Source: Norana najaformis
Taxonomy: Eukaryota; Annelida; Clitellata; Crassiclitellata; Hormogastridae
Reading direction: 5' to 3'
Assembly (NCBI GenBank): GCA_964023275.1
Contig: OZ029917.1
Span: forward strand, 28,028,505-28,092,504
Length of the DNA stretch: 64,000 nt
Shown here in pieces: positions 46,301-49,300 of this stretch (position 1 is the stretch's first letter; every line of letters begins with the position of its first letter). The position numbers and the translations under genes were made by a program. Under the pieces are notes generated by a model. The model was not told the DNA's origin and did not search any database. It worked only from the letters and a program-made list of their open reading frames with translations.

Positions 46301-49300
46301 CATTTGATGATGAAGAACGTGTAACAACCCTTGATAGAGTTTTAGCTGGTAGCTTTCCCCTATCGAGTCCTGTGATAAATATGCAGGGCACGTAGGCAAG
46401 CTTCCCATAGCCTAGGGGATCATCCTGGCCATGAGTTGATGCACTACCCTGGAAATCGGGACCTTTCAGCGTATTCCTGGTACGTGGACCCAATCCTGCA
46501 CTCTGCTCACAGAGAGGTAGAACCTGGCAGGTTGGGACAGATTAAAAGTAGGAGTTCATCACAATACATATGAACAAACATGCATACCTGTGTTCATTTT
46601 TATTGAGCAGTTAAAGACTTTTCATAGGAAAATGTTCAAGGTATTTAATGATAAACTGCTTATGACTGATGAACTGTATATTGTTTATTTTTAGGCTAAA
46701 CATTGTTTCTGTGAAAATAAAACTTACTTAATGCAAGTTCTGTGCACTGATCCATCATCTGGCTATGCTTACTTTGACAGTGAGTGAAAACTACTTTTGT
46801 TAATTTATAATTCTAAATATGTATTTTTTTGTTTTGCTGGTACTTCTTATTATAATTACACTAAGTAACACAATTTTTGTGCCTGGGTAGTGAGTGTTAT
46901 TTCTTACTTGCTTATGCCTCAGAAGTGTAGAAAATGGCTGTTATTCTCTTCAAACTTTGTTTTTGTGACCAGGACAATGATATTTCTAAATTTACCTATT
47001 TCCAATGAAGACATGGGCAAATTTGCATGTTTTCGTGCAAATGAAGTAAAAAACGACATATGAATCAATATTAGCATGTATTTACACTACAGTTACACAA
47101 AAATGACTACAAAAGATTTAGAAGTGAGTAGTTTTTCGAGATTTATGGTTAAACTGTAAATCACTTTCACAAATCAGCCCCTAAATGTAGTCTCCCATCA
47201 TGTTCTCGTTATACTGTCCTTGGTAGCAATGTTCAAAGTCCAGTATATCCTGGTGGAAGTGCTCGCCTTGCTCCTCCAAGTATGCTACCATGTTTTCCTT
47301 GAAGTTATCAAGATGAGCGTCGAGGATATGCACTTCGAGGGACATCCTGCAGCCCATTTGCCATAGTTCTTCACCAGAGTCTCAACCAGCTCCACATAGT
47401 TTTTGGCCTTGTGATTGCCTAAGAAGCCCCTAACCACTGTGACAAAGCTGTTCCAAGCAACTTTTTCCTTCCTAGTGATCCTCTTGGGGAATTCTTTGCA
47501 CTAAAGGATCTTCTTTATCTGTGGTCTGATGAATACACCAGCTTCGACATTTGCCACAGACAGCTTAGGGAAGAAGTCTGCCAACTCCTTATCTAGGGCT
47601 GTGACAAATTGTTTTGTGAGGCCCAGTTTGATGTGCAATGGTGGCATCAGCACCTTCTTGGGGTCCACCAGTGGCTCCAACTTGATGTTGCTCCTCCCCA
47701 AAGGCAAAGATAGCAGGGAAACTTGGTAAAACCGCCTTGGAGACCCTTCGGGAATGCTACCATTTTGAAGTCTCCGATGACCTCCCAACTGTACTCATCA
47801 TACTTCAAGGTGTCTAGTAAGTTTTTGGTGCTGTTATAATCATCTTTGAGGTGCACCGAGTTAGCCAGGGGAAGAGATGGGTACTTGTTCCCGCTATGGA
47901 GCAGCACAGCTTTGAGGCTCCTGGATGAACTGTCAATGAAGAGACGCCACTCGTTCAGGTTACAGTTGATTCCAATTGCCTTGAACAGACTGATCACGTT
48001 GTGGCAGAAGCAGAGCCCATCTTTACTGGTGAAGAAGCTGGAAAAAACTTGGTGACACTTCCTCTGATCTGCAACTTGCACACTTTCATCCAACAAATTC
48101 CACTGCTTGAGCTTAGACGTCAAAAGCTCAGCGTTGGACTTGGTGTGACCAAGATCTCTGATCTAGTCATTGAGGTATATTTGTTTTGGATAGTATAGGT
48201 TTCTCTCTTCAGCTGGGAATTTGTAATCTGGATTTCCAACGTCTTCCTTGCTTTCTGACTTACTGCTCTCTTCTGCAGACAGCTGCTTTCTCTCTGGGAA
48301 GCTCAGTACAGTGTGGCACTGGGGTGATGGATGCGTGATAGCAGGTGCATTCTTGCCAGTCTGACATGTGGAGGGATCCACCATACAGAAGTAGCAATTG
48401 CTTGAGTGGTCAGTGGGTTCTTGCCAAATTCTTGGGATAACAAACTTCATGGCTCTCTTTTCCCCTCTGTACCATCCTGCAAAAGAACAAAATGAAATTG
48501 TGATCATAACAGAATAAATGTATTTCACCCATGACTAATGTATAAGACATTCTTGCAACAATTTTCATATATCATATTTGTTCAATAACATTGACAATTT
48601 TCAAAAATTGTGAAATTACAGCATTTAAAACTTTTATAACTTTTATAACATAAAATGCCACCATCTAAGTGAGAATCAATTGTCCTTCTTACCCTTCAGC
48701 ATTTTTTGCAGTACTCACATGTGAAATGAGGTGCCCCAGGTTTGTCTTGATCCCCAACAGGAAAGCTGAAATATACCTTGTAGGCTTCACACATCTTAGG
48801 AGATGCTTCCATGGAGTACTTTTTCACTCTTGTCTTGATAATTTGGCTGCAGACATAGCAAAATACATCTGCTGTATGCTTGCAGCCTCTTGGTGCCATC
48901 TCAAACGTGTATCCACTTAGGCAGCTACAACTAAACTGAACTGGTGGGCTTAAGGCCACTGTATTTATACTGCTATTTATATATTTCTGGAAAGTTCCAG
49001 AAAGTTGTCAGATGTTCTAGAATATTCTCAAAAGTTCTAGAAAGTTCTAGCAGTTACTCCAAGTTTACTCAGCAGTGAATTCATCTTGAGTGTTCTGTAA
49101 AGTAGGTAAATTTCAGAATATCACTATCCTGGTCACAACAGCAAAGATTGTGGGGAATAATAGCCATTTTCTATACCTTTGAGGCATAAGCAATTAGGAA
49201 ATAACACTTACTACCCAGGAAGGAAAAAGTAAAAATTTGTTACATGGTGTTTTAGAAGAGCAAAAAGAACTCCCTTCCAATAAAAATTACCTACACTTTG

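Follow-up and report, generated by a model that had tools for sequence, protein, structure and literature searches.

Why should a DNA transposon of an annelid carry, immediately upstream of its transposase gene, a long phased series of GAA and TTC pentamers of the kind found in heat shock elements (HSEs)? The question arises from a 64-kb stretch of the Norana najaformis genome (the window; contig OZ029917.1, positions 28,028,505 to 28,092,504), for which a preliminary description had proposed a heat-shock-type promoter that would render mobilization stress inducible. At a probability of roughly 0.84, the array represents a binding platform for HSF through which a Chapaev3-like DNA transposon expressed its transposase gene; we infer both HSF binding and induction from the organization of the promoter. 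The observations behind this reading are the anatomy of the element, the presence of the array in the copies read, its excess over chance expectation, its similarity to a host hsp70 promoter, and the HSF domains encoded by the host.

The array occupies positions 48984 to 49048 on the minus strand and comprises 13 pentamers in which GAA and TTC alternate at a 5-bp phase. Ten of them are exact and three imperfect, and the sequence reads AGAAC TTTCT AGAAC TTTTG AGAAT ATTCT AGAAC in the first half and ATCTG ACAAC TTTCT GGAAC TTTCC AGAAA in the second. The exact units fall into runs of three, three, and four; an HSE is recognized by three or more adjacent nGAAn units that alternate in 5-bp phase, and the array contains such runs. 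Where fourteen phased positions had been counted previously, 13 units held and the 14th, CTGCT, was weak. The phased pattern itself is real, as its phased-array score is 14, whereas none of 60 first-order Markov simulations, each of 64 kb, gave more than 8; phased-array scoring of the 64-kb window found no score of 8 or more besides the array. As had been described, the array lies approximately 85 bp before the start codon (ATG at 48897 to 48899, 85 bp away) and just inside the terminal repeat, starting about 50 bp internal to the inner edge of the arm at 49100 to 49227.

Downstream of the array on the same strand are two TATA-like boxes, TATATAAATAG (box 1; 48973 to 48983) and TATAAATAC (box 2; 48961 to 48969), followed by TTCAGTTTAG (48931 to 48940), an initiator-like site that marks the predicted transcription start; its A is found 32 nt past the first T of TATA box 2. 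The order in the transposon is array, TATAAATA, and initiator-like TTCAGTTT, which places an HSE just upstream of a TATA box and a predicted start, as in hsp70-type promoters. A host hsp70 gene (C8:33839611) contains TTCTAGAACGTTC, 25 bp, TATAAATA, and, approximately 30 nt further, TCAGTT. The order of elements is common to both, although the HSE of the hsp70 gene is shorter, and the earlier proposal of an hsp70-type layout, in which the HSE array is followed by a TATA box, an initiator-like site, and the transposase ATG, is supported. Weaker phased sites close to TATA boxes were found at the hsp70 genes L092 and L093. HSF DNA-binding domains that exceed the Pfam cut-off are encoded at four places in the genome; one of the four is partial and contains stops. 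Direct copying of the array from host hsp70 promoters was also considered and is unsupported, the phased scores being 6 at L091, 6 at L092, and none of at least 5 at L093.

The promoter belongs to a 2,391-bp element (46859 to 49249, minus strand) that was delimited by its arms, its termini (CACCATG... and CACTAAG...), and its other copies. The terminal inverted repeat (TIR) at the gene-proximal (5') end spans 49100 to 49249, with the terminus CACCATGTAAC at 49239 to 49249, and that at the 3' end spans 46859 to 47001, with an arm at 46874 to 47001 and the terminus CACTAAGTAAC at 46859 to 46869; the two arms are 83% complementary. A two-exon transposase gene is predicted on the minus strand. Its putative exon 1 (48693 to 48899), with limits taken from splice-site consensus, is broken in this copy and is followed by a candidate intron (48477 to 48692) with a GTAAG donor and a TTTTGCAG acceptor and by a putative exon 2 (47200 to 48476), which contains stops and frameshifts and has an approximate 3' limit. 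Identified by eye, the C(2)C motif FPCYLCLW (47698 to 47721), the LH motif MPPLHIKLGL (47618 to 47647), and the H(4)H motif HILDAHL (47310 to 47330), all on the minus strand, are present in this order, in different frames because the window copy is broken. Acidic positions in FIDSSS, VIGDFKMV, and EEQG were picked by eye as candidates for the DDE residues of a putative catalytic core with an RNase H fold. Pfam searches with eight open reading frame pieces returned nothing relevant (weak matches to GRAS, DNA_pol_E_B, and wHTH stayed below the cut-offs), and one piece searched against PDB sequences returned no match.

Placement of both ends succeeded for 21 of 30 copies, and the window copy (CACCATG/CTTAGTG) and most of these 21 have 5'-CAC...GTG-3' termini; the decayed exceptions include L007, L010, L014, and L021. 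The left flank of the window copy, TTA (46856 to 46858), is a candidate 3-bp target site duplication, with one mismatch to the right flank, TTT (49250 to 49252). Identical 3-bp flanks were found in 12 of the 21 end-placed copies, and matches at 4 to 8 bp in none. Nine of these 12 duplications are TWA (TAA or TTA), with an A on the 5' side in all 12 and a T on the 3' side in 11. CAC/GTG ends, a TWA duplication between A and T, the C(2)C, LH, and H(4)H motifs, and a two-exon transposase are given as hallmarks of Chapaev/Chapaev3 by Zhang et al. (2014, PMC4079192). The element fits Chapaev3, of the CMC supergroup, by its termini, duplications, and motifs; its catalytic DDE core and its exact placement are putative. 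The same ends, TWA duplication, three motifs, and two-exon transposase are described for the Chapaev3 elements Merrow and Garfield, Garfield_BM having a length of 2,289 bp (PMC4079192). The term "heat shock" has no occurrence in the main text of that source, whereas the window element carries an HSE array.

CACTA elements, which belong to the same CMC group that this element resembles, have subterminal repeats that bind transposase. The array is likewise subterminal and is internally repetitive, with a period of 10/20, and might represent such a transposase-bound repeat, as in plant CACTA/Spm, in which the resemblance to HSEs is incidental. We consider this very improbable, because the array is confined to one end, scores elsewhere in the window staying below 8, and lies directly against a TATA box in a layout common to a host hsp70 promoter, because the alternation of GAA and TTC in 5-bp phase is kept, and because the copy read from a sister family (below) is without it. 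An HSF-driven transposase promoter remains the preferred reading.

To place the window copy among its relatives, the genome (608 Mb, 17 contigs) was searched at the DNA level, which yielded 478 candidates, of which 40 were scored, the window copy included. The other 39 are 79 to 88% identical to the window copy. Each of the 40 copies read, the scored subset of the 478 candidates, carries the array, with scores of 9 to 23. In the majority sequence built from 30 of them, which scores 23, 12 of the 13 units are exact. In 27 of these 30, the scored array is followed within 40 bp by an exact TATAAATA. The alignment of other copies that had been suggested as a check shows the array to be kept throughout and the TATA box in most copies, and neither copies without an array nor a local expansion in the window copy was found among these 40. 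The hsp70-type layout dates back to the ancestor of the family.

An internally deleted subfamily (L071 to L077) carries the array in all seven copies with the region read (scores, 10 to 20); it was found via coding sequence alone, and therefore these copies were not chosen for their promoter. The count leaves out 13 further coding-sequence copies (L078 to L090), most of whose fetched or aligned stretches start inside or after the array; their array scores are 27, 17, 13, 12, 10, and 6 in six copies and 4 or less in seven, and L085, which starts inside the array, contains a decayed remnant only. Three additional copies, L044, L045, and L047, carry the array and are left out of the count because they were found through the HSE pattern. 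Out-of-phase losses within the array were observed in L013 and L019. A palindromic derivative (L052 to L057; C1:33048469-33048996) consists of two facing 5' ends with an HSE array on each.

Is the array maintained in these copies? The mean pairwise divergence of the 5' region is 13.6%, and the longest frame in the first 30 copies is no more than 292 codons. In 30 copies, core columns diverged from the majority by 5.9% and spacer columns by 8.4% (raw values); once CpG/TG/CA columns were removed, the values were 5.2% for cores, 5.1% for spacers, and 5.9% elsewhere. Array scores averaged 16.0 in the 30 copies versus 16.3 under simulated neutral decay. By column divergence and neutral-decay simulation, no clear constraint on the array cores of individual copies was detected in this set of 30. 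The presence of the array in all copies is due to shared descent from one burst, the scores matching neutral decay. The copies read look like broken, neutrally decaying fossils that still carry strong HSEs, and since no selection was seen on them, we make no claim that they are still maintained; an intact copy may exist elsewhere in the genome.

The absence of clear purifying selection on cores after insertion is what would be expected if the array arose by neutral expansion of a simple repeat in the founder copy and was never regulatory. Gains and losses of blocks point in the same direction: L086 has a 15-unit array with 14 exact units through an in-phase gain of 10 bp, and L009 has lost 30 bp in phase. 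Against such an origin, the majority sequence retains its 12 exact units in alternation, next to a TATA box and an initiator-like element, and differences between the 20-bp repeats of the array and between subfamilies are mostly in spacers. Specifically, 12 changes are fixed between the main family and the nine copies of the deleted subfamily, 9 in flanks, 3 in array spacers, and none in the 39 core columns, the test resting on these three spacer changes. The array resembles three 20-bp repeats, in which 5 of 6 variable columns are spacers (P = 0.018, post hoc), and both comparisons of cores with spacers are weakened because the HSE pattern defined the columns compared. They lend modest support to the suggestion that changes before the burst avoided the GAA/TTC cores, i.e., that the cores may have been constrained at that time. 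A neutral expansion without regulatory function is, in our assessment, very improbable.

The best reading of the promoter sequence is that the ancestral transposase gene was HSF driven and stress inducible. Heat or proteotoxic stress would have activated HSF, trimers of which would have occupied the 12 to 13 phased units; transcription of the transposase gene would then have proceeded from the neighboring TATA box and initiator, and the larger amount of transposase would have mobilized the element, presumably with increased transposition. Because the copies read are decayed, stress-inducible mobilization is a statement about the past. Heat or another stress probably once switched on the spread of this family, leaving strong heat shock sites across the genome.

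A perfect 5-unit HSE, GAANNTTCNNGAANNTTCNNGAA, occurs 344 times in the 608-Mb genome versus 10 times for the reversed control, and a 4-unit HSE pattern was found at 459 places versus 102 for its control. The first 100 matches listed for the 5-unit HSE correspond to 55 distinct places on C1 to C3, of which 54 belong to this Chapaev3-like element. Alignment or position inside an aligned copy supports 23 of the 54 (14 of the 15 places on C1 and 9 more inside other fetched copies, two of them aligned); the other 31 were assigned by a family 23-mer alone, with no more than one mismatch, a criterion that fewer than 1% of random 5-unit HSEs would reach. Extrapolation to the whole genome, on the assumption of a representative sample, gives roughly 190 distinct perfect 5-unit places. 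The sole exception among the 55, L049, contains at 1475 to 1705 (C1:19442490-19442720) an LTR-like repeated family that holds a 5-unit HSE, followed, by eye, by a PBS-like TTGGTGTCAGAAG; 63 matches from 40 scored candidates were obtained for this family, the others being 69 to 95% identical.

That one decayed family supplies nearly all of the sampled perfect 5-unit HSE places makes the heat response of nearby genes testable. It also raises the alternative that the main effect of the array is on the host, with scattered copies acting as HSF sites that recruit neighboring genes into the heat shock response, as described for Caenorhabditis elegans Helitrons (PMC6927752). General co-option is unsupported because the copies decay neutrally, and such an effect is compatible with the array having originated as a transposase promoter; as an account of its main role, it is highly improbable. 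A transposase promoter bound by HSF accounts for the array in our preferred reading.

A second family allows promoter and fate to be considered together. A protein search returned 4,395 candidates, of which 150 were scored; among the matches listed, 61 belong to the HSE array family and 89 to a sister family with 42 to 43% identity to it over approximately 192 residues. Among the matches listed, 86 of the 89 sister matches are without a stop, and their frames comprise 359 to 623 codons, many near 569. The 5' part of one sister copy (L096 plus L097; C1:22179130-22179850) starts with TTA|CACTGGTCAAC and is without an HSE array in the 721 bases read, in which no adjacent alternating pair of exact GAA/TTC units occurs. 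In this copy, TGACGTAAGATGACGTCA, which we take to be a CRE/ATF site, is located 9 bp before TATATAAAG. An exact 24-mer from the sister promoter, TGACGTAAGATGACGTCAGCAGTG, is present at 951 places genome-wide, versus none for the control. Of the 26 sister matches listed on C1, 22 have it 670 to 695 bp upstream.

The sister family looks young because the exact 24-mer is so frequent, and with only 344 perfect 5-unit HSEs genome-wide, it cannot generally carry one. An abundant sister family without an HSE, as judged from the one copy read, implies that an HSE is not needed for the success of the lineage. We tentatively raise the possibility that Chapaev3-like families exchange promoters as cassettes, the old family having had the 13-unit HSE and the sister having a CRE/ATF-type TGACGTAAGATGACGTCA beside TATATAA, although we regard this as somewhat doubtful. 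If it were true, the lineage would persist by switching among host stress or signaling pathways, and the retired family would have left nearly all perfect 5-unit HSEs as raw material for rewiring of the host response. With its different promoter type and open frames, the sister family offers a natural comparison for the effect of a promoter on transposon fate.

HSE-bearing transposons are already known, among them the Helitrons of C. elegans and the ONSEN elements of plants. Helitrons are rolling-circle elements without TIRs. In C. elegans and Caenorhabditis briggsae, they are described as autonomous DNA transposons with clustered HSEs in the promoter of the transposase gene (14 in F33H12.6), which is heat induced with HSF-1 binding, and almost two-thirds of C. 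elegans HSEs are reported to be located in Helitrons (Garrigues et al. 2019, PMC6927752). The family found here is similar in being a DNA transposon with clustered HSEs in its transposase promoter; it differs in having TIRs and a single compact array of 13 phased units that abuts a TATA box, for which a function is predicted. In ONSEN/COPIA78 of the Brassicaceae, heat-responsive elements in the element's own promoter are reported to tie activation to the host heat response (PMC5059998, PMC3907296); ONSEN is a plant LTR retrotransposon under plant HSFs, whereas the present family is a TIR DNA transposon in an animal. The Cryptococcus LTR retrotransposons TCN3 and TCN12 are described as heat mobilized, and their LTRs as containing one or two putative HSEs; they differ in being fungal LTR elements; the Cryptococcus CMC elements CNIRT6 and CNEST are not described with HSEs in that account (PMC12810828). 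Among the results listed for the open-licence literature on transposon HSEs and on Chapaev with heat shock, there was no HSE promoter for Chapaev. With an HSF-driven Chapaev3-like family, the range of stress-wired transposons would come to include an animal TIR transposon in addition to rolling-circle and LTR elements.

Other features were observed in the window. An uninterrupted 619-codon frame at 12892 to 14751 (plus strand) has, by eye, the look of a piggyBac-type transposase, and a perfect (TGCC)n array of 70.5 copies is found at 44403 to 44684. A 741-codon open frame at 50686 to 52911 (plus strand), PKD-repeat-like by eye, is a probable host gene and starts approximately 1.4 kb beyond the Chapaev3-like element, on the opposite strand.
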